61,984 nt of DNA, from NCBI GenBank assembly GCA_013360395.1, contig JABWBQ010000011.1, forward strand, positions 1 to 61,984. Direction: 5' to 3'. This document shows positions 1,383 through 25,131 of this stretch, piece after piece. Origin of the DNA: Flavobacteriales bacterium (GTDB lineage: Bacteria; Bacteroidota; Bacteroidia; Flavobacteriales_F; PHOS-HE28). The notes below the pieces were generated by a model. That model did no database searches. It worked only from the letters and a program-made list of their open reading frames with translations, and was not told the origin of the DNA. Position 1 is the stretch's first letter. Each line of letters starts with the position of its first letter. The position numbers and the translations under genes are program-made.

Positions 1383-2795
1383 ATGAACGAAGGCCCTTCC
1401 CCCCTGCCGGACCGTGAGGACGACCGCACGGACCATGTGCAGCGCTTCGAGGCGATGCTGAGCCGGAACGATCACTACTTCTTCGACGTCGAGGAGTTCG
1501 AGCTGATCATCGAGCACTACCTGGACAACAACGAACCGAAGAAGGCCCGGCAGGTGCTGGACTATGCCCACAAGCAGCATCCGGGGTCGGTGGACCTGCT
1601 GTTCTGCGAGGCGCAGGTGCTGATGGGCATGGGCCGCCTGAACCGGGCCCTGGAGGTGCTGGACAGCATCGCCAAGCTGGAGCCGTACAACGAGGACGTG
1701 CACCTGCACAAGGCCGGCATCCACAGCCAGCTGCGCAACTACCGCAAGGCCATCGAGCACTACCGCAAGGCGCTGGAGCTGGCCGAGGAAGGGCTGGACG
1801 ACATTTACCTGGACCTGGCCTTCGAGCACGAGAACTGCGAGCAGTTCGACGAGGCCATCGTGTGCCTGAAGAAGGCGCTGGAGGTGAACCCCGAGAACGA
1901 GGCCGTACTGTACGAGCTGGCCTATTGCTACGACCTCGCCGAGGCGCACGAAGCCAGCGTGGTGTTCTTCCGGAACTTCACCAACGAGCACCCGTACAGC
2001 TTCGTGGCGTGGTACGACCTGGGGAACGCCCTGGCCAAGCTGGGCCGTTTCGAGGAGAGCAACCAGGCGCTGGACCTGTGCCTGGCCATCGAGGAGGAGT
2101 TCAGCTCGGCCTACTTCAGCAAGGCCCGCAACCTGCTGCACCAGGGTGCTTACGAGGAGGCCATCGCCTGCTACCAGGAAACGCTGAACATCGACGGGCC
2201 GCAGGCCGTCACCTTCAGCTACATCGGTGAGTGTTACGAGAAGATGGAACGGCATGAGCAGGCGCTGATCCACTACGACCAGGCCCTGGCGCTGGATCCC
2301 GAGTGGGTGGATGCCTGGATCGGCCGCGGGGTGGTGAAGGACTACCAAGGCCGGTCGGCCGAATCCATCAAGGACCTGGAGCAGGCCGTGCGCATCGCAC
2401 CCGACTCGGGGGACGGCTGGTATTACCTGGCCAACGCCCTGGCCCGGGCCGAGCGTTGGGCCGACAGTATCCGTGCCTACGAACGGCTCAACAGCATGGA
2501 GCCCGAGAGCCTGGACGGCTGGCTGGACCATGCCGACCTGATGCTGCACCTCAAAGGTCCCGAGGCCGCGCTGGCCAAGCTGCGCGAAGGGGAGCTGGTG
2601 CACAAGCTGACGCCGCGCTACAAGTACCGGCTGGCCAGCTACCTGCTGCGCTGCGGACGGCAGCAACAGGCGCTGTTGGAGCTGGAAGAGGCGCTCATGG
2701 CCGACCACGCGGGCCACACCCAGCTGCTGGAGCACCATCCCGAGGCGGCGTCCATGCCCCAGGTGATGCACCTGATCGAGCTGTACAAACGATGA
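1383..2795 (+). CDS. Tetratricopeptide repeat (TPR) protein
   Basis: A 470-aa protein made almost entirely of 34-residue TPR helical hairpins: repeated patterns of the type A-x-x-x-Y/L-x-x-A-L-x-x-x-P run from about residue 40 to the end. No signal peptide or membrane segment is seen, so it is probably a cytoplasmic scaffold for protein-protein contacts. The ATG at 1383 is chosen because the TAATTTTG promoter lies between it and the upstream in-frame ATG at 1203, which would extend into non-protein-like sequence. Its stop overlaps the start of the next gene (ATGA), so the two are probably co-translated. The specific partner is unknown. Confidence 0.85.
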   Translation: MNEGPSPLPDREDDRTDHVQRFEAMLSRNDHYFFDVEEFELIIEHYLDNNEPKKARQVLDYAHKQHPGSVDLLFCEAQVLMGMGRLNRALEVLDSIAKLEPYNEDVHLHKAGIHSQLRNYRKAIEHYRKALELAEEGLDDIYLDLAFEHENCEQFDEAIVCLKKALEVNPENEAVLYELAYCYDLAEAHEASVVFFRNFTNEHPYSFVAWYDLGNALAKLGRFEESNQALDLCLAIEEEFSSAYFSKARNLLHQGAYEEAIACYQETLNIDGPQAVTFSYIGECYEKMERHEQALIHYDQALALDPEWVDAWIGRGVVKDYQGRSAESIKDLEQAVRIAPDSGDGWYYLANALARAERWADSIRAYERLNSMEPESLDGWLDHADLMLHLKGPEAALAKLREGELVHKLTPRYKYRLASYLLRCGRQQQALLELEEALMADHAGHTQLLEHHPEAASMPQVMHLIELYKR

Positions 2796-3613
2796 ACTTC
2801 AGTCTCTCGCACATCCCCGCGCGCACGGCCAAACCGCGCGAGGAGGGCCTCACCATGGTGATGGACAAGGGCCTGGCCCTGCGGCAGGTGGACGACCTGA
2901 TCGAGGTCGCAGGGCACCTGGTGGACCTGGTGAAGCTGGGATTCGGCACCAGTTACGTGATGCCCGGACTGAAGGACAAGGTGAAGCGCTACAAGGCGGC
3001 CGGGATCAAGGTCTACCTCGGCGGCACCCTCTTCGAGGCCTTCATCGCCCGCGGGCAGTTCGACGCCTATCGCCGGTTGTTGGAGGACCTGGGGCTGGAG
3101 TGCGCCGAGGTGAGCGACGGCAGCATCGACCTGCCGCACGACGAGAAGTGCCGCTACATCAGCATCCTGGCGCAGGACCACACGGTGCTCAGCGAGGTGG
3201 GCAGCAAGGAGAGCGGCATCCTGATCAGCCCGGCCAAGTGGGTGCGCATGATGAACACCGAGCTGGAGGCCGGCAGCTGGAAGGTGATCGCCGAGGCACG
3301 CGAGAGCGGCAACGTGGGCATCTACAGGCCCAGCGGCCACGCGCACACCACGCTGGTGAACCGCATCCTGGCCAAGGTGCCGGGGCACGACATCCTCTGG
3401 GAGGCGCCCCAGAAAAGCCAGCAAGTGTGGTTCATCCGGCAGCTCGGCGCCAATGTGAACCTGGGCAACGTGCCCGCCGAGGAGGTGATCCCCCTGGAGA
3501 CGCTGCGGCTGGGATTGCGTGGCGACACCTTCTTCCAGTACCTGCCCGAGGAGGTGGCCGCGAAACTGCGGCAGGTGAAGCCACCGCAGCAGGACCCCAA
3601 GGGCAAGGCCTAA
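2792..3613 (+). CDS. comA: Phosphosulfolactate synthase (ComA/HSA32 family)
   Basis: A 273-aa TIM-barrel protein of the ComA family, whose characterised members add sulfite to phosphoenolpyruvate to give (2R)-phospho-3-sulfolactate. Family signatures are present in order: an N-terminal KPREEGLTMVMDKG, then DLVKLGFGTS, KVYLGGTLFE, AEVSDGSIDLP and VLSEVGSKE. The length fits the family (about 250-300 aa). The ATG overlaps the stop of the TPR gene by 4 nt. ComA starts coenzyme M synthesis in methanogens and sulfolactate formation in spore formers. Here no other coenzyme M gene is nearby, so the product may feed another sulfonate, or the protein may act like the plant relative HSA32, whose chemistry is unsettled. 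Confidence 0.82.
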   Translation: MNFSLSHIPARTAKPREEGLTMVMDKGLALRQVDDLIEVAGHLVDLVKLGFGTSYVMPGLKDKVKRYKAAGIKVYLGGTLFEAFIARGQFDAYRRLLEDLGLECAEVSDGSIDLPHDEKCRYISILAQDHTVLSEVGSKESGILISPAKWVRMMNTELEAGSWKVIAEARESGNVGIYRPSGHAHTTLVNRILAKVPGHDILWEAPQKSQQVWFIRQLGANVNLGNVPAEEVIPLETLRLGLRGDTFFQYLPEEVAAKLRQVKPPQQDPKGKA

Positions 3614-3681
3614 GAACGTCGCAGCCGGTCGCCGCGGTCGTTGCATCTTCGCGCCCCGTGCATGTCCACACCTTCCCGCCC

Positions 3682-3999
3682 ATGACCACGATAAGCCCGG
3701 AGGAACTGCAACGCATGCGCCGGTCGGGCGTGGCCTTCCAGCTCATCGATGTGCGTGAGCCGTACGAGGCGGAGCGCTGTTCACTGGGCGGTACCCTGAT
3801 CCCGCTGGGGGAGATCCTGGAGCGGCTGGATGAGATCCGGCGCGACGTGCCCGTGGTGGTGCACTGCCGCACGGGCAACCGGGCGCTGGCCGCGATCACG
3901 GCCCTGGAAAGGCGCCACGGGTTCAAGGGCCTCATCCAGCTCGAGGGCGGCATCCAGGCCTATGCGGACCGCGTGGACCCGGCACTGCGCTGCGAGTAG
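3682..3999 (+). CDS. Single-domain rhodanese
   Basis: A 105-aa single rhodanese domain (sulfurtransferase). The active-site loop is HCRTGNR with the persulfide-accepting cysteine at position 62, preceded by the usual LIDVREPYE strand near residues 21-29 and followed by the C-terminal LEGGIQAYADRV helix. No signal peptide is seen, so it is cytoplasmic. The start at 3682 gives a complete fold without extra sequence. It lies 68 nt after comA and may work with it in sulfur transfer, but that link rests on position only. Confidence 0.88.
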   Translation: MTTISPEELQRMRRSGVAFQLIDVREPYEAERCSLGGTLIPLGEILERLDEIRRDVPVVVHCRTGNRALAAITALERRHGFKGLIQLEGGIQAYADRVDPALRCE

Positions 4000-4091
4000 G
4001 CCGGGCCGGTGGGGAAGGGATCGGACCACGGCAAGCCTCACCCGGACCGGAAGACCCCGTGCGCACCGCTGACGACCGGTGAAGAGCGCCG

Positions 4092-4099
4092 TACCTTTG
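4092..4099 (+). promoter_or_regulatory. -7 element TACCTTTG
   Basis: Exact match to the Bacteroidota TAnnTTTG -7 consensus, 20 nt before the ATG at 4120. It supports that start over the longer in-frame ATG at 4009. Confidence 0.65.
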
Positions 4100-4119
4100 C
4101 ACCCTTCCCGCACGGGCCG

Positions 4120-5583
4120 ATGCCAAGCACCAGCAGCAATACGCACGTCACGTTGAGCCCCGGCCAGAAGGCCCGGAAGATCAACCTGGACACGGACCTG
4201 TACGGCACCTTCGCCGAGATCGGTGCGGGCCAGGAGACGGTGCGGCACTTCTTCCGGGCGGGCGGCGCCAGCCAGACCATCGCCAAGGCGATGAGCGCCT
4301 ACGACAAGGACTTCAGCAACGCCATCTATGGCAAGGAGGCCGACAACCGGTTCGTGTGCGAGAGCCGGCTGCGCAACATGCTGCGGCACGAATACGGCCT
4401 GATGGTGGAGCGCCTCTCGCGCAAGGACCACCCCACCAAGAAGTTCTTCACCTTCGCCAACACGGTGGCCACCAGCACGCTGGACCGGCCGCACATCGGC
4501 CACGGCTGGATCGGGGTGCGCTTCCAGACCGGCCCCGACAGGCCCACCAGCGACGTCATCATCCACGTGCGGTTGCACGACCCCGACATCAGTCTCCAGC
4601 AGGAGACCATCGGTGTGATGGGGGTGAACCTCCTGTACGGGTGCCTGTTCCAGCACCACGACCCGCAGGAGATCATGACCTGCCTGTACGACAACGTGAG
4701 CCGCCACGTGATCGAGGTGGACATGGTGCAGATGAACGGGCCCGACTTCGCCCAGGTGGACAACCGCCTGATGAGCCTGCAGCTGGTGAAGCGCGGCTAC
4801 ACCGACGCGGTGATCTTCGGCCCCGACGGCCAGAACCTGCAGGCCAGCGAGGTGCTGTACAAGAAGAACATCCTCACCATCCGCGGAAGCTTCCGCCCGG
4901 TGACGAAGGTGAACATCGATATGATCATGAACGGTTATAACATGTTCATCAAGGAGAACCGGGTGGACCGGAGCAACCTGCAGGTGCTCTTCGAGATCAC
5001 CCTCAACAACCTGCAGGCGGACACCGGCAGCGTGGACGAGAAGGACTTCATCGACCGGGCCGACATTCTGTGCTCCCTGGGGCAGACCGTACTGATCAGC
5101 AACTACCAGGAGTACTACAAGCTGGTGGAGTACTTCAGCCGGTACACCAAGGCGCGCATGGGCCTGATCATGGGCGTGAACAACCTGATCGAGGTCTTCA
5201 ACGAGAAGTATTACCGGCACCTGAACGGCGGGATGCTGGAGGCCTTCGGGATCCTGTTCACGCGCGACCTGAAGATCTACGTGTACCCCAGCAGGCCCAC
5301 GGCCGACGTGGAGTTGATGACCACGGCCAACATGCCGGTGCATCCGCGGCTGCAGCCCCTGTACGACTACCTGCTGTACAACCGGCGGATCGTGGACATC
5401 GAGACCTACGACCCCACGGTGCTGCACATCTTCAGCCAGCAGGTGCTGGCGATGATCCGTGAAGGGCGCGAGAACTGGGAGGGGATGGTGCCGCCCTACG
5501 TGGACAACATGATCAAGGACAACCGCCTGTTCGGCTACCGTCCGAAAGGCGAGGTCAAGGCTCCGGTGAACGCCAAGGCCTGA
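4120..5583 (+). CDS. Conserved protein of unknown function, 487 aa
   Basis: A soluble-looking 487-aa protein that I recognise as a conserved type found in Bacteroidota but cannot assign. It begins with a well-conserved stretch around ARKINLDTDLYGTFAEIGAG (residues 17-36). It has no signal peptide or membrane helices. A HIGH tetrapeptide occurs near residue 124-127 (in DRPHIGHGWIG), which resembles the nucleotidyltransferase motif but lacks its usual N-terminal Rossmann setting. I recall relatives carrying conflicting database names, so annotation by name should be distrusted. It is preceded by its own TACCTTTG promoter and followed by a short gap, so it is probably monocistronic. Confidence 0.8.
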   Translation: MPSTSSNTHVTLSPGQKARKINLDTDLYGTFAEIGAGQETVRHFFRAGGASQTIAKAMSAYDKDFSNAIYGKEADNRFVCESRLRNMLRHEYGLMVERLSRKDHPTKKFFTFANTVATSTLDRPHIGHGWIGVRFQTGPDRPTSDVIIHVRLHDPDISLQQETIGVMGVNLLYGCLFQHHDPQEIMTCLYDNVSRHVIEVDMVQMNGPDFAQVDNRLMSLQLVKRGYTDAVIFGPDGQNLQASEVLYKKNILTIRGSFRPVTKVNIDMIMNGYNMFIKENRVDRSNLQVLFEITLNNLQADTGSVDEKDFIDRADILCSLGQTVLISNYQEYYKLVEYFSRYTKARMGLIMGVNNLIEVFNEKYYRHLNGGMLEAFGILFTRDLKIYVYPSRPTADVELMTTANMPVHPRLQPLYDYLLYNRRIVDIETYDPTVLHIFSQQVLAMIREGRENWEGMVPPYVDNMIKDNRLFGYRPKGEVKAPVNAKA

Positions 5584-5650
5584 GGGGCGGCGATCCGACG
5601 AGCCGGGGCAGGCGATCGACGGGACGGTGGGGTGCCGGGCCCACGCGGAC

Positions 5651-5658
5651 TATCTTGG
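5651..5658 (+). promoter_or_regulatory. -7 element TATCTTGG
   Basis: Close match to TAnnTTTG, 10 nt before the ATG at 5669. It implies a leader of only a few nucleotides for the downstream four-gene set. Confidence 0.5.
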
Positions 5659-5668
5659 CCGCGCCGCA

Positions 5669-6916
5669 ATGCATGAAGAGAAGGCATCGTTGACCACCTC
5701 CGGGATCGGCCGCACCGTGCGGACCCACCACCCCGCCGTGCGCCCCCTGCCCCACCCGTGGCATGCCTGGCTCACGCTGAGCAACGACCCGGACAACACC
5801 ACCCCGGCAGGGTGGGATGAGCTGCATCGCACCATCTGGCAGGAACTCGGACTGCCCTTCGCCGACGCCCTGTTCTTGCGGTCGTACAACACGCTGCTGC
5901 CCGACCAGGTGGACCTGCACGGTCGGCCGGAGCTGCTGGCCGCCCACCCGCACGACAGCATCCACACCTGGGGCGACTACATGTTCGCCCGCACGCGCGG
6001 TTTCGACCGCAGTGATGCCGAGGCGGCCCTGGCCTGGATGGAGCGCATCGGGTTCAGGCCCCGCGTCTGGGTGGACCACAGCCAGTTCACGGGCAACATG
6101 CTGCACCTGCACCGCACCGGTTCCATCCCCGAGTTCCGCGATGCCTCCGGCCATGTGTACCCCAACCCCCTGTACACGCTCGACCTGGTGCATGCAGCCG
6201 GCGTGCGTTACCTGTGGGACGGCACGGTGACCCCGGTGCTGGGCCAGGACCTGCCCCTGAGCGACCTGACCTATACCCTGGAGCACGCCGGCGACCGACG
6301 GACAGGGCTCGCCCGCTACGCGCGGAGCCGGGTGCGAGCGGGCCTGCGGCCGGGCACCGTGCCCTCCGCACGCGATGCCAACCGGGCCTACCGGCGCCAC
6401 CGGTTCCCGGACGGGCGGACCCTGTACATCTTCCAACGGCACGGCCAATGGCCACTGGCCGACATCGACGGTCTGGGCACGCTGCTGGCCCCCGAACGCA
6501 TGAACGCCTTGGTGCGACGTGGCGGCGTGTGCATCGCCTACACGCATCTGGGCAAACGTCCCGCCGCGCGCATGGCCGACCCCGTGCACGTGCCGCCGCA
6601 CACGCGCCGGGCCCTGGAACATGTCGCCACCCTCCACCGGCAGGGCCGTCTCATGGTCAGCGGGACCGCACGGCTGCTGGACCACCTGGTGATCCGCGAC
6701 CACATCCAGGTGGACACACCGGAACGAACGATCCGGTTCACCGCGGACGGGATCGCCTTCGACCGTCTCGGCGCCGCGGAACTGGCAGGCCATGCGTTCA
6801 CCTTCAACCTGCCCGCCAGGCCACCCTGGAAGGTCGTGGGCACCGAGGGCGTGCTCGCACCCCGGCTGGAGGAGCACGGGCGCAAAACGTTCACCCTTCA
6901 CTTCGACGGCGCATGA
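5669..6916 (+). CDS. Polysaccharide-deacetylase-like protein
   Basis: A 415-aa protein whose N-terminal half resembles carbohydrate-esterase-type (NodB-like) barrels: LTLSNDPDNT with Asp40/Asp42, then SIHTWGDY (His99) and WVDHSQFTGN (His137). Such an Asp-His-His set could bind a metal and remove acyl groups from an amino sugar. The match is a motif impression, not a clear family hit. There is no signal peptide, which suggests a cytoplasmic substrate such as a nucleotide- or lipid-linked sugar. Its stop overlaps the next gene, a formyltransferase, by ATGA. The C-terminal 150 residues are unassigned. Confidence 0.55.
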   Translation: MHEEKASLTTSGIGRTVRTHHPAVRPLPHPWHAWLTLSNDPDNTTPAGWDELHRTIWQELGLPFADALFLRSYNTLLPDQVDLHGRPELLAAHPHDSIHTWGDYMFARTRGFDRSDAEAALAWMERIGFRPRVWVDHSQFTGNMLHLHRTGSIPEFRDASGHVYPNPLYTLDLVHAAGVRYLWDGTVTPVLGQDLPLSDLTYTLEHAGDRRTGLARYARSRVRAGLRPGTVPSARDANRAYRRHRFPDGRTLYIFQRHGQWPLADIDGLGTLLAPERMNALVRRGGVCIAYTHLGKRPAARMADPVHVPPHTRRALEHVATLHRQGRLMVSGTARLLDHLVIRDHIQVDTPERTIRFTADGIAFDRLGAAELAGHAFTFNLPARPPWKVVGTEGVLAPRLEEHGRKTFTLHFDGA

Positions 6917-7719
6917 GCCATCCGGTGATCCTGCTCACCAACCGTTCGCGCGGGGCGAAAGCCCTGGCGCGCGCCCTGGTGGCCCAGGGGCTCGACCTGC
7001 GGCTGATCGTGGTCGGCAGGGAACCCGCGCCGGAACCGTCCAAACGCTGGGTCTTCCGCGTGCTGCGCAGCGTGCTCGGCAACACGCTGGTGAACCATGT
7101 GGGCACGCTGTTCCGCGATCCTACGATGAAGCATGTACTGCGCGTGGAAAGCAGGCTTTTCGAGCAGGCGGACATCGTGCTGGATGGAGGGATCGCCGCC
7201 ATGGACCTGCTGCCCGGATGGCCCGCCGGCCCGCCCCTGATCGAAGTGGACGACATGAACACGGCCGCCACGGTCGACAGGCTGCGCAGCGAAAGTCCGG
7301 TCGCCCTGGTGGTCTTCGGCACCGGCATCCTCCGGCGGGCCGTGCTCGACATCGCCCCGGCCATCAATGCCCATACCAGCCTCCTGCCCCACTACCGCGG
7401 CACACGCAGCGAGTTCTGGCAATGCCGGCACAACGACCGCGCGTCGGTGGGCATCACCTTCCACCTGGTGGACGAAGGCGTGGACACCGGCGACATTCTC
7501 TTTCAGCGGCCCACGGACACCCCCTGGCCCACCACGCCCTTCCACCTGCGCAGCCTCAACACCCTGGAGGTGGTGCGCCACATGCCCGGCGTGGTGCGGG
7601 CGTTCCTGGAAAAACGGCTGACCCCCTTCCCCCAGCCGAAAGGTGGCGGTAGCACTTACCGCAACCGGGACATCACCTTCGCCGACCGCCAGGCGCTCTT
7701 CGGATCCCTGGAGGAATGA
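6913..7719 (+). CDS. Formyltransferase-family protein (N-formylation of an amino sugar?)
   Basis: A 268-aa protein of the Fmt/PurN formyltransferase fold, which transfers formyl from N10-formyltetrahydrofolate. The C-terminal half carries the catalytic signature INAHTSLLPHYRG, with Asn152 and His154, and VDEGVDTGDIL with Asp191. The N-terminal half diverges from methionyl-tRNA formyltransferase, and the tRNA-binding C-terminal domain is missing. A small-molecule or sugar substrate is therefore more likely than Met-tRNA. It is translationally coupled to a deacetylase-like gene before it and a WD40 gene after it (ATGA overlaps on both sides). Confidence 0.75.
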   Translation: MSHPVILLTNRSRGAKALARALVAQGLDLRLIVVGREPAPEPSKRWVFRVLRSVLGNTLVNHVGTLFRDPTMKHVLRVESRLFEQADIVLDGGIAAMDLLPGWPAGPPLIEVDDMNTAATVDRLRSESPVALVVFGTGILRRAVLDIAPAINAHTSLLPHYRGTRSEFWQCRHNDRASVGITFHLVDEGVDTGDILFQRPTDTPWPTTPFHLRSLNTLEVVRHMPGVVRAFLEKRLTPFPQPKGGGSTYRNRDITFADRQALFGSLEE

Positions 7720-18117: not shown

Positions 18118-18750
18118 ATGCGGACATGCTTGTTGCTCGGGGCCCTGCTGGGCCTCTTGGAGGTCAGGGCCCAGGTGGCCTCCCCGGAACGTGACCTGGT
18201 CCAGTTCAGCGGTGTGGTGGTGAGCGGTGACAGCCTGCTGCCGGTGCCCTTCACCAACATCCTGATCAAGCACAGCTACCGGGGCACCATCAGCGACGTG
18301 TACGGCTACTTCTCGTTCGTGGCGGCCGAGGGCGACACGGTGATCTTCTCGGCCGTGGGCTTCAAGCGGTCGCAGTTCGTGATCCCGACGGACCTGGAGG
18401 AGAGCAAGTACAGCATGATCCACCAGCTGACGGCCGACACCATCCTGCTGGGGCAGGCCAACGTGTACCCGTGGCCGAGCCGCGAGCAGTTCCGTGATGC
18501 CTTCCTGAACCTGCGGCTGGCCGATGACGACTACCAGCTGGCCATGCGCAACCTGAGCGCGGCCGAGATGCTGCAGCGTATGGAGAACCTGCCGCCTGAC
18601 GCGTACGAGAGCTTCGGCTACCAGATGGCCATGGACCGCACGCGGCTGTACCAGCAGGGCGGCATGCCCACGGTGAACCTCTTCAACCCCATCGCCTGGG
18701 CGCAGTTCCTGCAAGCCTGGAAGTCGGGGGCCTTCAGGAAGAAGCAGTGA
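18118..18750 (+). CDS. Secreted CarboxypepD_reg-like domain protein
   Basis: A 210-aa protein with a signal peptide (residues 1-19, LLLGALLGLLEVRAQ) followed by a carboxypeptidase-regulatory-like beta sandwich at about 32-110: FSGVVVSGDSLLPVPFTNILI, GYFSFVAAEGDTVIFSAVGF. The C-terminal 100 residues are polar and helical and have no assignable domain. Such modules occur at the N-termini of TonB receptors and in surface proteins of Bacteroidota. Its stop overlaps the GTG start of the adenylation enzyme, so an envelope protein and a biosynthetic enzyme are co-translated. Confidence 0.75.
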   Translation: MRTCLLLGALLGLLEVRAQVASPERDLVQFSGVVVSGDSLLPVPFTNILIKHSYRGTISDVYGYFSFVAAEGDTVIFSAVGFKRSQFVIPTDLEESKYSMIHQLTADTILLGQANVYPWPSREQFRDAFLNLRLADDDYQLAMRNLSAAEMLQRMENLPPDAYESFGYQMAMDRTRLYQQGGMPTVNLFNPIAWAQFLQAWKSGAFRKKQ

Positions 18751-20267
18751 GCGCCCCCACGACCGTTGTCGGCCCGTTGTGGTCCTATTTCGAGCGTTCC
18801 TGGCGCCGGGCACCCGGGGCGGTGGCGCTGCATGTGGACGGCCGGGCCTGGACCTACGACGAGCTGGCCCTGCGGGCCCTGGCCGTGAGCCGGGCCGTGC
18901 GCGACAAGGGCGTGCAGGGACCTTTCGTGGGCCTGTACGCCCAGCGCAGCCTCGGGGCCTATGCGGGGGTGCTGGGCATCCTCCACGCCGGCAAGGCCTA
19001 CGTGCCGCTGAACCCGCAACTGCCGGTGGAGCGCCTGGCCACCATCGCCGGGCTGGCCGACCTGGACCTGATCGTGGCCGACCCGGCACGCGCCCCAGGA
19101 GCGCACGAACTGGCCGCACGGTGCCCCGCGGGTTGCACGGTGGCCCTGGCGGATGCGGGCACCGGCACCAGCACCGGACCGGTGGCCGGGGACGTGGCCT
19201 ACATGCTGTTCACCTCCGGCAGCACCGGCGTGCCCAAAGGGGTGCCCATCCGGCAGGCCAACGTGGTGGCCTACGTGGAGCACCTGCTGGAACGCTTTGC
19301 ACCGGGACCCGACGACCGCTTCTCCCAGACCTTCGAGCTCACCTTCGACCTCAGCGTGCACGACCTGTTCCTGTGCTGGGCCGCCGGGGCCGCGTTGTAC
19401 GTGCTGCCGCAGGACCAGCTGATGGCGCCGGCGCGGTTCATCCGCGAGCACGGCATCACCCAGTGGTTCAGCGTGCCCAGCGCGGCGGTGCTGATGGACC
19501 GCATGCGCTTGCTGAAGCCCGGCGCCTTCCCCGGCCTGCGGGTGAGCGCCTTCTGCGGCGAGCCGCTGCCGGCCGACCTGGCCGTGAAGTGGGCCGCGGC
19601 CACCCCCAACGGCCGGGTGGAGAACCTCTACGGCCCCACCGAGGCCACCATCGCCATCACGGGCCACGTGCTGAACGCCGCAGCGCCCAAGCAGCGGCTG
19701 GGCATCCTCAGCATCGGCCGCCCCTTCCCCACGGCGCGCATCCGGGTGGTGGGCGCCGAGGGTCGCGATGCCGACGAGGGCGAGCTGTGGCTGGGCGGTC
19801 CGCAACTGGCCGCCGGCTATTGGAAGGACGACGCGCGGACCGAGGCAGCGTTCGTGACGCACGATGGTGCGCGGTACTACCGCACCGGCGACCTGGTGCA
19901 GCGCGATGCCGACGGCGACCTCTTCTTCATCAGCAGGCTGGACGACCAGGTGAAGGTGCGCGGGCATCGCATCGAGCTGCAGGAGGTGAATCAGGTGCTC
20001 AAGGCGGTGAGCGGTGCGGCGTTCGCCTACGCCCTGGCCCACCCGGTGCGCGACGGCATCGCCCAAGGCATCGAGGCCTTCCTTCCCGCGGCCATGCAGG
20101 CCCAGGGCGGGACCATCCTGGAGGCCTGCGCCGCACGGCTGCCGGACTACATGGTGCCGGCGCGGCTGCACTTCACCGACGACATCCCGTACACCACCAG
20201 CGGCAAGGCCGACCTGCGGGCCCTGCGCGCCCGGCTCGAACATCCTGCGAGCCCCGCCGACCGATAA
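18747..20267 (+). CDS. AMP-dependent (amino)acyl adenylation enzyme, DltA/NRPS A-domain-like
   Basis: A 506-aa member of the ANL superfamily that activates a carboxylic or amino acid as acyl-AMP and loads it on a carrier protein. Core motifs: FTSGSTGVPKG (A3), NLYGPTEAT (A5), YRTGDL (A7), RLDDQVKVRGHRIEL (A8) and the catalytic TSGK with Lys487 (A10). Length and spacing match stand-alone D-alanine:carrier ligases (DltA) and NRPS A domains. It starts at GTG 18747 overlapping the previous stop (GTGA). A DltC-like carrier gene follows 10 nt downstream. The substrate cannot be predicted by eye. Confidence 0.88.
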   Translation: MSAPTTVVGPLWSYFERSWRRAPGAVALHVDGRAWTYDELALRALAVSRAVRDKGVQGPFVGLYAQRSLGAYAGVLGILHAGKAYVPLNPQLPVERLATIAGLADLDLIVADPARAPGAHELAARCPAGCTVALADAGTGTSTGPVAGDVAYMLFTSGSTGVPKGVPIRQANVVAYVEHLLERFAPGPDDRFSQTFELTFDLSVHDLFLCWAAGAALYVLPQDQLMAPARFIREHGITQWFSVPSAAVLMDRMRLLKPGAFPGLRVSAFCGEPLPADLAVKWAAATPNGRVENLYGPTEATIAITGHVLNAAAPKQRLGILSIGRPFPTARIRVVGAEGRDADEGELWLGGPQLAAGYWKDDARTEAAFVTHDGARYYRTGDLVQRDADGDLFFISRLDDQVKVRGHRIELQEVNQVLKAVSGAAFAYALAHPVRDGIAQGIEAFLPAAMQAQGGTILEACAARLPDYMVPARLHFTDDIPYTTSGKADLRALRARLEHPASPADR

Positions 20268-20272
20268 CTTCG
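20265..20272 (+). promoter_or_regulatory. -7-like TAACTTCG built on the ligase stop codon
   Basis: The TAA stop of the adenylation gene (20265-20267) is the TA of a TAACTTCG element ending 5 nt before the carrier-protein ATG. It could be an internal promoter of the operon, with the same geometry as at 8643. Confidence 0.35.
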
Positions 20273-20277
20273 GCCCC

Positions 20278-20544
20278 ATGTCCCTCAACGAAGTCACCCT
20301 GCGCGAGCGGGTCCGTGCCGCACTGGCGCCCCGGCTCGCGGAAATGGGCCTCACCCAGGCGGATGTGGGCGACGGCATGAGCCTCACCCAGAGCGGTGTG
20401 CTCGACTCCTTCGCCCTGATGGAACTGATCGGCGGGCTTGAACAGGCCTTGGGCGTGGAGCTCGACTTCGAGGCGATCGAGCCGGAGCGGATCACCACGG
20501 TGAAGGGGCTGGCCTCCGCCTTCGCCCAAGCCCTTGCCGCGTGA
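20278..20544 (+). CDS. Acyl/peptidyl carrier protein (DltC-like)
   Basis: An 88-aa carrier protein. The phosphopantetheine attachment motif is SGVLDSFALMELI with Ser44, preceded by an acidic helix and followed by LEQALGVELDFEAIEPERITTV, the usual helix II-III region. It would carry the acyl or aminoacyl group activated by the upstream ligase. It ends in an overlap (GTGA) with a GNAT acyltransferase. The length is standard for free-standing carrier proteins. Confidence 0.88.
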   Translation: MSLNEVTLRERVRAALAPRLAEMGLTQADVGDGMSLTQSGVLDSFALMELIGGLEQALGVELDFEAIEPERITTVKGLASAFAQALAA

Positions 20545-21050
20545 CCGAGGTCCGCGCCCTGGATCGTGATGCGGCGCCGGAGGACCTGCGGGCCGTGGAA
20601 GCGTTGTTCACCGCCATGTACGGCCACATGGACGGCCTGGGGCTCATGGTGCCGTTGGCGCCCGACGGTGCCGGCCTGTGGTTGAAGGCGCTGCTGCCCA
20701 TGCTGGGCAAGCTCCACACCATCCAGGTGGCCTGGGCGACGCCCCAGCCGGCGGACGGTCCGGACGCCAGGCCCCGACCCGTGGGCTTCGCCGCCGGCAG
20801 CATCCGGGTGGGTCCCGCGCACCTGGGGGGCATCCGTTCGGGCGCGGTGACCCACCTGTACGTGGACCCGGCCGCGCGCGGGGCCGGCCTCGGCCACCGG
20901 CTTTACGAGGCTCTCGCCGCCTGGTTCGCCGAGCGGGACCTGCGGCACCAGGAGCTGGAGGTGCTGGTGAACAACGAGGCCGCCCGCCGCTTCTGGACCT
21001 CCCTGGGCTTCGTGCCGGACCACCTCGTGATGCGGCGGATGCCGGGCTGA
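20541..21050 (+). CDS. GNAT-family N-acetyltransferase
   Basis: A 169-aa GNAT domain: VTHLYVDPAARGAGLGHRLYEAL (motif A, with R-x-x-G-x-G/A at about 118-123) and VNNEAARRFWTSLGFVPDH (motif B). It transfers an acyl group from CoA, or possibly from the carrier protein, to an amine. The GTG start at 20541 overlaps the carrier-protein stop. It is followed after 3 nt by an AAC(3)-like transferase, so two acyltransferases of different folds sit in one operon. Confidence 0.85.
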   Translation: MTEVRALDRDAAPEDLRAVEALFTAMYGHMDGLGLMVPLAPDGAGLWLKALLPMLGKLHTIQVAWATPQPADGPDARPRPVGFAAGSIRVGPAHLGGIRSGAVTHLYVDPAARGAGLGHRLYEALAAWFAERDLRHQELEVLVNNEAARRFWTSLGFVPDHLVMRRMPG

Positions 21051-21053
21051 CCC

Positions 21054-21932
21054 ATGGCGATCGCGGAGGACCAGGTGCTCTTCGCCAACGGTGCCCAACG
21101 CACCACGGCGGGCGACCTGCTGCACGCCCTGCACGACCTGGGGGTGCGGCCGGGCGACCTGCTGTTCCTGCACACCGACCTGCTGCGCTTCGGCCGGCCC
21201 GCGCCGGAGCTGATGCGTGTGCGCGGGGCGCTCTTCGACGCGCTGATCGCCGTGCTGCGCGAAGCCATCGGCCCGCAGGGCACCCTGATGATGCTCACCC
21301 TGTCCACCCGCACCCTGGACACCGGGCGGTTCGACGTGGAGCGCACTCCGGGGGAGGCGGGCGCCCTCACCGAACACTTCCGGCAGCTGCCCGGCGTGCG
21401 GCGCATCCCCCACCCCACGCACAGTGCGGCCGTGCAGGGACCCAAGGCGGACCTGTTCATGCATCCGCCGGTGCATCCCTTCGGCGCCGGTTCGATGTTC
21501 GACCTCCTCAAACGTGAAGGCGGCAAGCTGGTCTTCCTGGGGGCCGACTTCCATTGGTGCACCTTCAACCACCACATCGAGACCCTGCTGCCCGTGCGCT
21601 ACCGGCGGGAGCTGCGGGTGCCCATGACCATCGTGGCGCAGGGGGTCGAGCGCAGCACCGAGGCCATCCGCTTCCGCAAGCCCGCCCGCTACTGGACCAG
21701 CTTCGCGCGTTTCCGCACGGTGCTGCTGGAGCGTGGCATCCTGCGGGAGCGCGCGGTGGGTCGCGGCGTGGTCGCCGTCTCCGAGGCGATGGCGCAGTTC
21801 ACCCTGGGCACCGAGCTGCTGGGCCGTGACGAGCGCTACTTCATGAACGTGCAGCCGTGGGGGCGCTTCCTGCTCTTCAAGGCCAGGGAAAGGGCCGGCA
21901 GGCTGCTGCGGGCGCTCGGGCTGCGCCGGTGA
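21054..21932 (+). CDS. AAC(3)-family N-acyltransferase
   Basis: A 292-aa protein of the aminoglycoside 3-N-acetyltransferase fold. Family landmarks: GDLLFLHTDLLRFG near 34-47, PQGTLMMLT near 74-82, HPTHSAAVQGP near 120-130, and the catalytic-region FLGADFHWCTFNHHIE with His173/174 and Glu176. Besides resistance enzymes, this fold includes transferases that acylate amino sugars in polysaccharide pathways. The carrier-protein context favours such a biosynthetic role over antibiotic resistance. It is the last gene of the operon; a 158-nt gap with a new promoter follows. Confidence 0.83.
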   Translation: MAIAEDQVLFANGAQRTTAGDLLHALHDLGVRPGDLLFLHTDLLRFGRPAPELMRVRGALFDALIAVLREAIGPQGTLMMLTLSTRTLDTGRFDVERTPGEAGALTEHFRQLPGVRRIPHPTHSAAVQGPKADLFMHPPVHPFGAGSMFDLLKREGGKLVFLGADFHWCTFNHHIETLLPVRYRRELRVPMTIVAQGVERSTEAIRFRKPARYWTSFARFRTVLLERGILRERAVGRGVVAVSEAMAQFTLGTELLGRDERYFMNVQPWGRFLLFKARERAGRLLRALGLRR

Positions 21933-22078
21933 ACCGGACCCGGCGCGGTGTGTTCCGCGGCCGAAGCCACACCGCACGCCTGATCGCCACTGCGCATCCC
22001 GGCCTTCTTTCCTGGCCGGTCCGTTCCCTGGTCCTGGTGCTGCCCGGAACACGGCCGAACGGTCTTTGGGGCAGCACA

Positions 22079-22086
22079 TAGCTTTG
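22079..22086 (+). promoter_or_regulatory. -7 element TAGCTTTG of the efflux operon
   Basis: Exact TAnnTTTG match with only 4 nt before the GTG start at 22091. It implies a leaderless mRNA starting with GTG. Confidence 0.6.
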
Positions 22087-22090
22087 GGCC

Positions 22091-23173
22091 GTGCGTGCCA
22101 CATACCTCCTCCCATGTCTTGTGCTCCTGGCCATGGGCTGCGGCCGCGGGCAGGAGACCACCCGGCCTGTCGTGGGCCCGATCACCGAGAGCATCTACGC
22201 GAGCGGCGTGGTGAAGGCCGCCGGCCAATACCAGGTGTACCCCACGGTGACCGGCACGGTGCTGGCGCTGCTGGTCAAGGAAGGCGATACGGTGGCCGCG
22301 GGCACACCGCTGCTGCGGATCGACGACCGTACGGCCGGTGCCGGTGCGCGCATCAGCGCGGCACAGGTGCAGCTGTTGGAGCGGAACGCCTCGGACAGCG
22401 GTCCGGTGATCGTCCAATTGCGCGAGGCCGAGGCGCAGGTGCGGGACCGCTACCGGGTGGACAGCACCAACCACGCGCGCCAGCAGGCCTTGTGGGCGCA
22501 GGGTATCGGCAGTCGCAACGAGCTGGACCAGCGCGAGCTGGCGTACAGCACGAGCAAGGCCGGGCTGAACCGCGCCGTGAAGGCCCTGCAGGAAGCGCGC
22601 GACCGCCTGCGCACCGAGTTGGAGGTGGCGCGGAACAACGCCGCGATCAGCACCGCCGGCAACGACGACCGCACGCCGCGCAGCCTGATCGACGGAGTGG
22701 TGTACGACCTGCTGGTGGAGCCGGGCGAACTGGCCACGCCGCAGCGTCCCATCGCCGTGGTGGGCAGCGCCACGGAACTGTACCTGGAGCTGGACGTGGA
22801 CGAACGCGACATCCGCTTGGTGGAGCCCGGCCAGCGCGTGGTGCTCACCCTGGACAGCCACGAGGACACCGTGCTCGAGGCCACCGTCACCCGCGTCATC
22901 CCCCTGATGGAACCGCGTTCGCGCACCTTCCGTGTGGAAGCGCACTTCAAGACCCCACCGGCGAAGCTCTTCCCCAACATCACCGCCGAGGCCAACATCG
23001 TGCTGCGCACCCGGGAGAACGCCCTCACCATTCCGGCGGCCTATCTGTTGCCCGGCGATTCGGTGCAGACCGGGGATGGCCACCGGGTGCACGTGACCAC
23101 CGGCGCGCGCGACCTGGAGAAGGTGGAGGTGCTCGACGGCATCACCGCCGGCACGGAGCTGGTGAAGCCGTAG
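22091..23173 (+). CDS. Efflux periplasmic adaptor lipoprotein (HlyD/MacA-like)
   Basis: A 360-aa membrane-fusion protein linking an inner-membrane ABC permease to an outer-membrane channel. It has a lipoprotein signal with lipobox LAMGC (Cys17), then a lipoyl-like half (VYPTVTGTVLALLVKEGDTVAAG, about 50-72), a coiled-coil hairpin (about 85-185), the second lipoyl half and a beta-barrel region (VVLTLDSHEDTVLEATVTRV). The start is GTG at 22091; no ATG precedes the signal peptide. The permease gene begins 6 nt downstream. Confidence 0.87.
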   Translation: MRATYLLPCLVLLAMGCGRGQETTRPVVGPITESIYASGVVKAAGQYQVYPTVTGTVLALLVKEGDTVAAGTPLLRIDDRTAGAGARISAAQVQLLERNASDSGPVIVQLREAEAQVRDRYRVDSTNHARQQALWAQGIGSRNELDQRELAYSTSKAGLNRAVKALQEARDRLRTELEVARNNAAISTAGNDDRTPRSLIDGVVYDLLVEPGELATPQRPIAVVGSATELYLELDVDERDIRLVEPGQRVVLTLDSHEDTVLEATVTRVIPLMEPRSRTFRVEAHFKTPPAKLFPNITAEANIVLRTRENALTIPAAYLLPGDSVQTGDGHRVHVTTGARDLEKVEVLDGITAGTELVKP

Positions 23174-23179
23174 TGCGGC

Positions 23180-24451
23180 ATGAAGCTCCTGCTCTCCATC
23201 GCCGTCACCCTGTTGCGTGCCAAGCTCCGCCAGAGCATCGTGGCCGCCGTGGGCGTGATGTTCAGCATCACCATGTTCGTGGCCCTGCTCGGGTTCATGA
23301 ACGGCCTGAACGACCTGCTGGACGGGCTGATCCTGAACCGCACCGCGCACATCCGGCTGTACAACGAACTTCAGGCCACGCCGCGGCAGCCCATCGCCGT
23401 GGAGCAGGACGGTCAACGCGTGGCGGGCACGCCGCCGGCGCACCACTTCGTGCGTTCGGTGAAGCCCAAGGACGACCTGCCCCGGCTGCGCAACGGGGAG
23501 GCCATCATGCGGGCCATGGAGCGCGACCCGCGGGTGCTGGCGGTATCGCCCCGGCTCGTGGCGCAGGTGTTCTTCAACGTGGGCACGGTGGACCTCAACG
23601 GGCAGGTGAGCGGCATCGATGTGGCGCAGGAGATCCGCCATTACCGGTTCGGGGACCATCTGACGCGGGGCGATCCGCAGGACCTGGCCACCGGCAGCAA
23701 CACCGTCGTGCTGGGCAAGGGCCTGGCGGACATGATGGCGGCCGACCTCGGGGAGACAGTGCAGGTGACCACCGCCACCGGCGACCGCGCCATGCTGCGC
23801 GTGGTGGGCATCTTCCAGAGCGGCATCGCCGAGTACGACAAGGTGCAGTGCTACGCCAACATCCGGACCGTGCAGAAGCTGTTGGCACGGCCGGCGGGCT
23901 ATTACACCGACATCAACCTGAAGCTGCATGACCTCGCGTCCGCGCCGGCCATGGCCCGTGAGCTCGCCGCCCGCTTCAAAGTGGACGCCGTGGACATCCA
24001 GACGGCCAACGCGCAGTTCGAGACCGGCACCACGGTGCGCACCATCATCAGCTACGCCGTGGGCGTGGTGCTGCTCATCGTGGCCGGCTTCGGCATTTAC
24101 AACATCCTGAACATGATGATCTACGAGAAGCTCGACACCATCGCCATCCTGAAGGCCACGGGCTTCAACGGCGCCGACGTGCGGCGGATCTTCCTGTCGC
24201 TGAGCATGATCATCGGCCTGGTGGGCGGGCTCGCGGGCTTGGTGGCGGGGCTCGTCCTGCAGGTGCTGATCGACCATCTGCCGTTCAACACGGCGGCGTT
24301 GCCCACCATCACCACCTTCCCGGTGGACCACTCGCCCCGGTACTTCATCATCGCCGTGAGCTTCGCGCTGCTCACCACCTGGGTGGCCGGCTGGTTCCCC
24401 GCGCGCAAGGCCTCGCGGGTGGACCCGGTGGAGATCATCCGTGGGAAATGA
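23180..24451 (+). CDS. ABC transporter permease, MacB/LolC-type
   Basis: A 423-aa FtsX-like permease: one N-terminal transmembrane helix (about 17-40), a large periplasmic domain (about 45-285), then three helices near 290-415, where the cytoplasmic loop EKLDTIAILKATGF couples to the ATPase. It ends in ARKASRVDPVEIIRGK, the standard tail of the family. With the adaptor before it and the ATPase after it, this makes a MacAB- or Lol-like tripartite system for mechanotransmissive export. The substrate is unknown. Confidence 0.9.
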   Translation: MKLLLSIAVTLLRAKLRQSIVAAVGVMFSITMFVALLGFMNGLNDLLDGLILNRTAHIRLYNELQATPRQPIAVEQDGQRVAGTPPAHHFVRSVKPKDDLPRLRNGEAIMRAMERDPRVLAVSPRLVAQVFFNVGTVDLNGQVSGIDVAQEIRHYRFGDHLTRGDPQDLATGSNTVVLGKGLADMMAADLGETVQVTTATGDRAMLRVVGIFQSGIAEYDKVQCYANIRTVQKLLARPAGYYTDINLKLHDLASAPAMARELAARFKVDAVDIQTANAQFETGTTVRTIISYAVGVVLLIVAGFGIYNILNMMIYEKLDTIAILKATGFNGADVRRIFLSLSMIIGLVGGLAGLVAGLVLQVLIDHLPFNTAALPTITTFPVDHSPRYFIIAVSFALLTTWVAGWFPARKASRVDPVEIIRGK

Positions 24452-25131
24452 GCACGGCCAGGGACATCCTCGCGGTGGAGAAGGTGAACAAGTCCTTCCA
24501 CGACCCCGTGACCGTGCAGGTGCTGAAGGACGTCGCGTTCAGCGTGGCACGCGGCGAATTCGTGAGCATCACCGGCAAGAGCGGTTGCGGCAAGAGCACG
24601 CTGCTGTACATCCTCAGCACCATGGACACCGATTACCAGGGCGACGTGGTGATCGACGACGAGCGCACGCACGGGCTGGACGGGGAAAGGCTCGCCGCGA
24701 TCCGCAACGAAAAGATCGGTTTCGTGTTCCAGTTCCATTACCTGCTGCCGGAGTTCAGCGTGCTGCGCAACGTGATGCTGCCCGGGTTGAAGCTGGGGCG
24801 CAAGGACGCGGCCGAAGTGGAGGCCGATGCCATGGAGCGGCTGCGCGAGCTGGACATGGCCGACCAGGCGTTGAAGATGGCCAACCAATTGAGCGGTGGC
24901 CAGAAGCAGCGGGTGGCCATCGCCCGCGCCCTGATCAACGATCCGCTGATCATCATGGGCGACGAGCCCACGGGCAACCTGGACAAGCGGAACGCGGACA
25001 CCGTGTTCGGCATCTTCCAGCGCATCGCCGCGGAGCACCGGCGCAGCCTGCTGATCGTGACGCACGACCCCGACTTCGCGGCGCGCACGGACCGCAACAT
25101 CGTGATGGACGACGGGCGGATCGTGGGTTGA
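24448..25131 (+). CDS. ABC transporter ATP-binding protein, MacB/LolD-type
   Basis: A 227-aa ATPase: Walker A GKSGCGKST (43-51), Q-loop FVFQFHYLLPEF, signature LSGGQKQR, Walker B LIIMGDEPTG and H-loop VTHD. It overlaps the permease stop by 4 nt (ATGA). Its stop lies 3 nt from the convergent stop of the GH3 gene, leaving no room for a terminator between the two units. Confidence 0.93.
   Translation: MSTARDILAVEKVNKSFHDPVTVQVLKDVAFSVARGEFVSITGKSGCGKSTLLYILSTMDTDYQGDVVIDDERTHGLDGERLAAIRNEKIGFVFQFHYLLPEFSVLRNVMLPGLKLGRKDAAEVEADAMERLRELDMADQALKMANQLSGGQKQRVAIARALINDPLIIMGDEPTGNLDKRNADTVFGIFQRIAAEHRRSLLIVTHDPDFAARTDRNIVMDDGRIVG

Follow-up and report, generated by a model that had tools for sequence, protein, structure and literature searches.

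A conserved adenylation enzyme–carrier–acyltransferase cassette as a candidate route for aminoacylating surface amino sugars in Flavobacteriales

The 61,984-nt stretch analyzed here (hereafter the window) is contig JABWBQ010000011.1, C85 in our numbering, of a Flavobacteriales bacterium (GCA_013360395.1; genome of 3.68 Mb in 139 contigs). At positions 18747–21932 of its plus strand it carries a cassette of four genes encoding a stand-alone adenylation enzyme (ANL) of the nonribosomal peptide synthetase (NRPS) type, a phosphopantetheine carrier protein, a GNAT acetyltransferase and an AAC(3)-fold N-acyltransferase. Judged from sequence and genomic context, the cassette probably aminoacylates an amino sugar of a cell-surface polysaccharide within a pathway similar to the Wbp/Vim pathway. 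In Porphyromonas gingivalis and Tannerella forsythia, the latter pathway makes an N-seryl or N-glycyl amino sugar which anchors type IX cargo (PMC7468200), while Prevotella intermedia has an N-alanyl linker whose pathway is described as unknown (PMC11969387). How amino acids reach the sugars that anchor type IX cargo is established for only two species, and the cassette is a concrete, testable candidate for a second route to aminoacylate such sugars. It would also give the AAC(3) fold, mainly known for antibiotic resistance, a part in making surface sugars across a bacterial class. Both ligase–carrier aminoacylation and the Wbp/Vim pathway are known. Their combination with GNAT and AAC(3) in Vim-like loci did not turn up in the open-access papers searched, and neither did a relevant paper on a ligase, carrier and AAC(3) in sugar loci.

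The cassette forms the larger part of a run of five genes at 18118–21932. The ANL gene (18747–20267, GTG start) encodes 506 aa with an AMP-binding match of 1.3e-67 and is an amino-acid adenylation domain over the NCBIfam cut-off (TIGR01733, 335 bits), and its AMP-binding_C match (8.6e-04) falls under the Pfam cut-off. It is followed by the gene of the 88-aa carrier (20278–20544; PP-binding 2.4e-06), whose predicted attachment site, Ser44, lies within GVLDS; the LDS motif, including this serine, is unchanged across 12 aligned homologues. The 169-aa GNAT (20541–21050, GTG start; Acetyltransf_1 1.9e-13) and the 292-aa AAC(3)-fold protein (21054–21932; Antibiotic_NAT 2.2e-33) complete the cassette. 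The Antibiotic_NAT model scores 116 bits on the latter protein against a cut-off of 25; H173, E176 and PxxS are retained, and the HPxHS and TFxHHxE motifs are conserved in the alignment. Upstream, also on the plus strand, an exported CarboxypepD_reg-like protein of 210 aa is encoded at 18118–18750 (Pfam CarbopepD_reg_2 3.9e-09). The junctions along the run are, in order, a 4-nt overlap, a 10-nt gap, a 4-nt overlap and a 3-nt gap. The five tightly coupled genes described in a first-pass annotation of this DNA, made from the letters alone, were therefore all present with matching coordinates and families, and the absence of NRPS condensation and thioesterase domains from them held in the Pfam search. 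A scan of the run found no promoter-like site and a single terminator-like one, on the opposite strand and within chance expectation; since this gave nothing informative, the operon is inferred from gene spacing alone. A minus-strand open frame of 1165 codons (18618–22115) runs antisense across the cassette. At 68% G+C, such long shadow frames are to be expected, and this one is no evidence of a gene.

The AAC(3) and ANL proteins were used as queries in 197 related genomes, and the neighborhoods were then gene-called; the carrier of G042 was overlooked by the gene caller, and the ANL of G037, whole in the search, was called only in part. The order ANL–carrier–GNAT–AAC(3) was found in 25 genomes, of which six carry the window type, 16 carry same-genus cassettes with an ANL about 41–46% identical to that of the window (hereafter type B), and three belong to other families (G073, G090 and G137). 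Three further cassettes (G007, G021 and G035) were interrupted by contig ends. Because this order recurs in genomes whose proteins are only 25–45% identical, the arrangement is not due to chance. In these genomes, most neighboring genes overlap or are separated by a few nucleotides, and the GNAT is kept in every cassette. The CarboxypepD_reg gene, counted by the first-pass annotation as part of the set, precedes the ANL in the six window-type genomes and in no others. A five-gene unit including it was therefore ruled out: by position the gene is co-transcribed with the cassette in the window's subgroup only, and it is the last four genes that co-occur widely in the relatives, contrary to the lack of co-occurrence that the first-pass annotation had named as a refutation. 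In G007, a glycosyltransferase gene takes the corresponding position with a 4-nt overlap, and the cassette follows directly behind. In G014 and G015, the toroid gene (see below) and AAC(3) occupy the site without ANL, carrier and GNAT; these three genes thus behave as an optional donor module, and it looks as if the module alters what AAC(3) transfers. Among the close relatives is L137, a Flavobacteriales metagenome-assembled genome.

The acceptor side of the proposed reaction is suggested by the neighborhood of the cassette in the relatives. In type B genomes the cassette lies within a surface-polysaccharide locus, which contains glycosyltransferases, a WecB-type epimerase, a 390-aa protein, the cassette, a DUF7033 protein and an Acetyltransf_6 protein. 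The high-confidence structure model of the 390-aa protein is an alpha/alpha toroid, nearest to unsaturated glucuronyl hydrolases and sugar 2-epimerases (Z 33–31). The DUF7033 protein matches the NCBIfam VimE model at 2.6e-42 (145 bits; equivalog cut-off 440). The model of the Acetyltransf_6 protein is nearest to aminoacyl-tRNA-dependent transferases acting on streptothrisamine (Z 23.6), followed by FemX (Z 21), and since its predicted fold is that of this enzyme group, a VimA-like role would fit it. In the window's own genome, genes for Wzx, a Wzy-type protein and glycosyltransferases lie upstream of the Vim-like locus. G007 and the window's subgroup have this locus too, with the toroid gene directly before the VimE-like gene (a distance of about 20–30 nt in those subgroup genomes where the starts are well called) and the cassette elsewhere. 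The VimE-like gene of the window's genome is divided between contigs C45 and C49, and G008, G026 and G033 are contiguous there.

The presence of AAC(3) tracks that of the toroid gene, when the latter is counted only inside a Vim-like locus. AAC(3) was found in 26 of the 27 genomes with a toroid gene in the locus; in the 27th (G007), the contig breaks off within the cassette. The 18 genomes without the toroid gene there had no AAC(3). The association has a Fisher p of 1e-11, or 7e-9 in the 30 near-complete genomes, both values ignoring relatedness. In every readable locus without the toroid gene, WecB is directly followed by VimE; G006, G011 and G030 gave no readable locus, as it was absent or too short there. 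On the organism tree, built from six flanking genes, there are six changes of state, AAC(3) and the toroid gene always changing together, a pattern that is suggestive but not significant. Outside the genus, a VimE-like and/or VimA-like gene lies no more than 1.5 kb from 21 of 24 AAC(3) matches, which makes AAC(3) look like a usual component of Vim-like loci. Moreover, AAC(3) genes without any ANL or carrier occupy the same kind of locus elsewhere, and the ANL loci of other phyla had no VimE-like or VimA-like neighbors.

The genome of the window also encodes the enzyme types expected of such a pathway. Contig C20 carries genes for a UDP-GlcNAc 6-dehydrogenase homologue (TviB model, 5.5e-150), a GFO/IDH dehydrogenase, a hexapeptide acetyltransferase and a DegT aminotransferase. 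By family and clustering, these predicted products are homologues of WbpA/B/D/E, i.e., the enzyme types of the Wbp pathway. A PorU sortase is encoded as well. The likeness to the Wbp/Vim pathway thus lies in the WbpA/B/D/E homologues and PorU of this genome, in the VimE-like deacetylase and FemX-fold VimA-like genes adjoining the cassette of the relatives, and in the known product, an N-aminoacyl amino sugar; the putative VimE, VimA and WbpA/B/D/E counterparts in the genome are matches at family level. The differences are that VimA alone is credited with the addition of serine or glycine in P. gingivalis, with no ligase or carrier described, and that ANL, carrier, GNAT and AAC(3) are added here, unlinked in the window's genome.

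The adenylation pocket bears on the donor. Its ten positions (GrsA numbering) were placed from motif positions on the alignment, and the code of the window's enzyme was read as DLHSACLIAK. The pattern DLHS(A/F/L)CLIAK is present in 23 of 26 aligned cassette enzymes, the other three pockets being DLHAACLIAK (G007), DPHSFSLVNK (G090) and DLQSMCFISK (G137), and DL(H/F)SLCLIAK recurs in Acidobacteria, Alphaproteobacteria and Paenibacillus. Every cassette enzyme keeps the Asp235-equivalent, the residue to which the amino group binds. An amino acid is hence favored over a hydroxy or fatty acid as the substrate, so that of the amino or hydroxy acid loading put forward in the first-pass annotation the former part stood and the latter was not favored. 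The nearest solved relatives of the ANL are LgrA, then entries for DltA and 4oxi, which we take to be AlmE of Vibrio cholerae. In Paenibacillus sambharensis (L146, 5923–11761), a gene of the aconitase family and a DUF6025 gene come after an ANL with the pocket DLFSLCLIAK, in what may be a metabolite cluster.

The following sequence of reactions can be proposed. The ANL would adenylate an alpha-amino acid and load it onto the phosphopantetheine of the carrier, as its family, the Asp235-equivalent and the adjacent carrier suggest. The GNAT would then acetylate the amino group of the carrier-bound amino acid, though the order could be reversed, with the GNAT acting on the amino acid after its transfer. 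Finally, the AAC(3)-fold enzyme would pass the (N-acyl)aminoacyl group from the carrier to an amine of a sugar nucleotide or glycan from the Wbp/Vim-like pathway. The VimE-like deacetylase might free this amine, or the DegT aminotransferase might make it. Our confidence in these steps differs and is a matter of judgement, not of computation. Loading of an amino acid on the carrier is very likely, transfer by AAC(3) is likely, and an amine in a surface polysaccharide is a reasonably probable acceptor; the acetylation by GNAT could go either way. That the acceptor is the type IX linking sugar itself, as opposed to another unit of the same polysaccharide, is possible but doubtful. A carrier-dependent, tRNA-independent aminoacylation of that sugar, in which the AAC(3)-fold enzyme takes its donor from a carrier instead of CoA, must be regarded as more doubtful still. 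The general scheme of the first-pass annotation, a ligase and carrier feeding an amine of a surface glycan with two acyltransferases acting in sequence, was thus supported by the genomic context, and its acceptor, 'surface glycan or lipid', could be narrowed to a surface-polysaccharide locus with VimE-like and VimA-like genes. Its expectation of a novel release route was dropped: no missing NRPS domain is needed, since the AAC(3)-fold enzyme is available as an obvious off-loading transferase.

Several observations weigh against aminoacylation of a surface amino sugar by the cassette. AAC(3)-fold enzymes normally use acyl-CoA. The pocket code of the cassette equals no substrate code known to us. 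In the window's genome, the cassette lies physically outside the Vim-like locus, unlike in type B. The VimE-like proteins of the relatives score 114–145 bits where the cut-off is 440, and NCBIfam has no model that matches the VimA-like protein. Of the six joint changes on the tree, only four are on branches with good support, and so few cannot make a sign test significant. Furthermore, the AAC(3) of the window shares only 25–27% identity with type B AAC(3) and forms a long branch of its own, and it may therefore act on a different acceptor.

The genes behind the cassette give rise to another explanation. An HlyD-type adaptor, a MacB/FtsX permease and an ABC ATPase are encoded on the same strand at 22091–25131 (HlyD_3 1.4e-21, FtsX 5.1e-20, ABC_tran 7e-32), and the cassette might make a small exported molecule, such as an acylated amino-acid amide or a signal, which this MacB-type pump secretes. 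The three genes lie downstream of the cassette in five of the six subgroup genomes (the contig of the sixth ends first), and related pocket codes are found in likely metabolite clusters of Streptomyces and Paenibacillus. On the other hand, the pump starts 158 nt past the AAC(3) gene, a SIMPL (DUF541) gene separates AAC(3) from HlyD in three relatives (L062, L063 and L065), type B cassettes lie within a polysaccharide locus and have no pump, and the five genes include no condensation or thioesterase domain. We consider an exported product improbable, and the pump genes are probably functionally unrelated downstream neighbors in the window's subgroup. The amino acid might also be placed on a membrane lipid, be it lipid A or another, instead of a polysaccharide sugar, as in AlmEFG, which places glycine on V. 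cholerae lipid A (PMC12930378). Both systems follow the same logic of ligase, carrier and transferase, and 4oxi is one of the solved structures nearest to the ANL. The transferases here are a GNAT and an AAC(3)-fold (Antibiotic_NAT) protein, with no match to a lipid acyltransferase family and no AlmG-type enzyme as the third gene, and the genomic linkage is to polysaccharide assembly genes; a lipid acceptor therefore has a low probability.

The invariance of the Asp235-equivalent and a best family match to amino-acid adenylation argue against loading of a hydroxy or other non-amino acid, which would make the product an ordinary N-acyl sugar like that in the O-antigen of Flavobacterium psychrophilum (PMC6519341). 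There, transfer of a carrier-bound hydroxyacyl group to an amino sugar has been proposed, and the wfp genes resemble the cassette in that the acyl group is thought to pass from a dedicated carrier to a sugar-nucleotide amine. They differ in that the acyl chain comes from fatty-acid-type enzymes and the transferase is of the PglD type, as opposed to an adenylation enzyme and an AAC(3)-fold protein here, and we rate such a product as unlikely. Least likely by far is that the AAC(3)-like protein and the GNAT are aminoglycoside-resistance enzymes standing by chance beside an unrelated ligase and carrier. The AAC(3) fold and active-site motifs would fit it; the score of 79.7 bits against the 270-bit cut-off of the NCBIfam resistance family and the conservation of the gene order with ANL and carrier across families do not.

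The cassette also resembles DltA/DltC in its stand-alone ligase of related sequence, its small carrier, and Cys at position 301 in both ligases. The ligase here scores 251 and 243 bits against DltA-type cut-offs of 476 and 560, and no DltB (MBOAT) gene adjoins the ligase and carrier, MBOAT genes being found only on other contigs; the transferase is instead a soluble AAC(3)-fold protein. Dlt-type enzymes of the class have the pocket D(L/F)(Y/L/M)MLC(V/T)(I/V)FK, from which the cassette pocket differs at four of ten positions (239, 278, 322 and 331), the relation of code to substrate not being established.

As for the origin of the window-type cassette, its ANL is sister to the type B ANL in the tree. 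A plain relocation of the type B cassette is not clean, since the AAC(3) is long-branched though the ANL is sister to type B. A search of 395 genomes for other relatives within the phylum gave nothing above 34% identity to the AAC(3) of the window. The window-type ANL is also present in G007, though G007 stands apart on the organism tree, and transfer of a distinct version of the cassette is for this reason as likely as relocation.

Related genes were seen in other settings. Acidobacterium L139 (5917–12815) carries an ANL of the same type and a carrier in a Wbp-type cluster, beside WecB, a GFO/IDH–hexapeptide (WbpB/D-type) fusion and a DegT aminotransferase. In L160 (Helicobacter sp., 2466–7171) and L162 (Mucispirillum, 2118–7512), ANL, carrier and AAC(3) stand with an uncharacterised protein of 243 and 249 aa, respectively, and DUF4910/DUF2172 domains are joined to the ANL or the AAC(3). 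Most genomes of the genus also encode large multi-module NRPS proteins, present outside the window at G000:C66:4079-17573 as open frames of some 2175, 1323 and 1371 codons.

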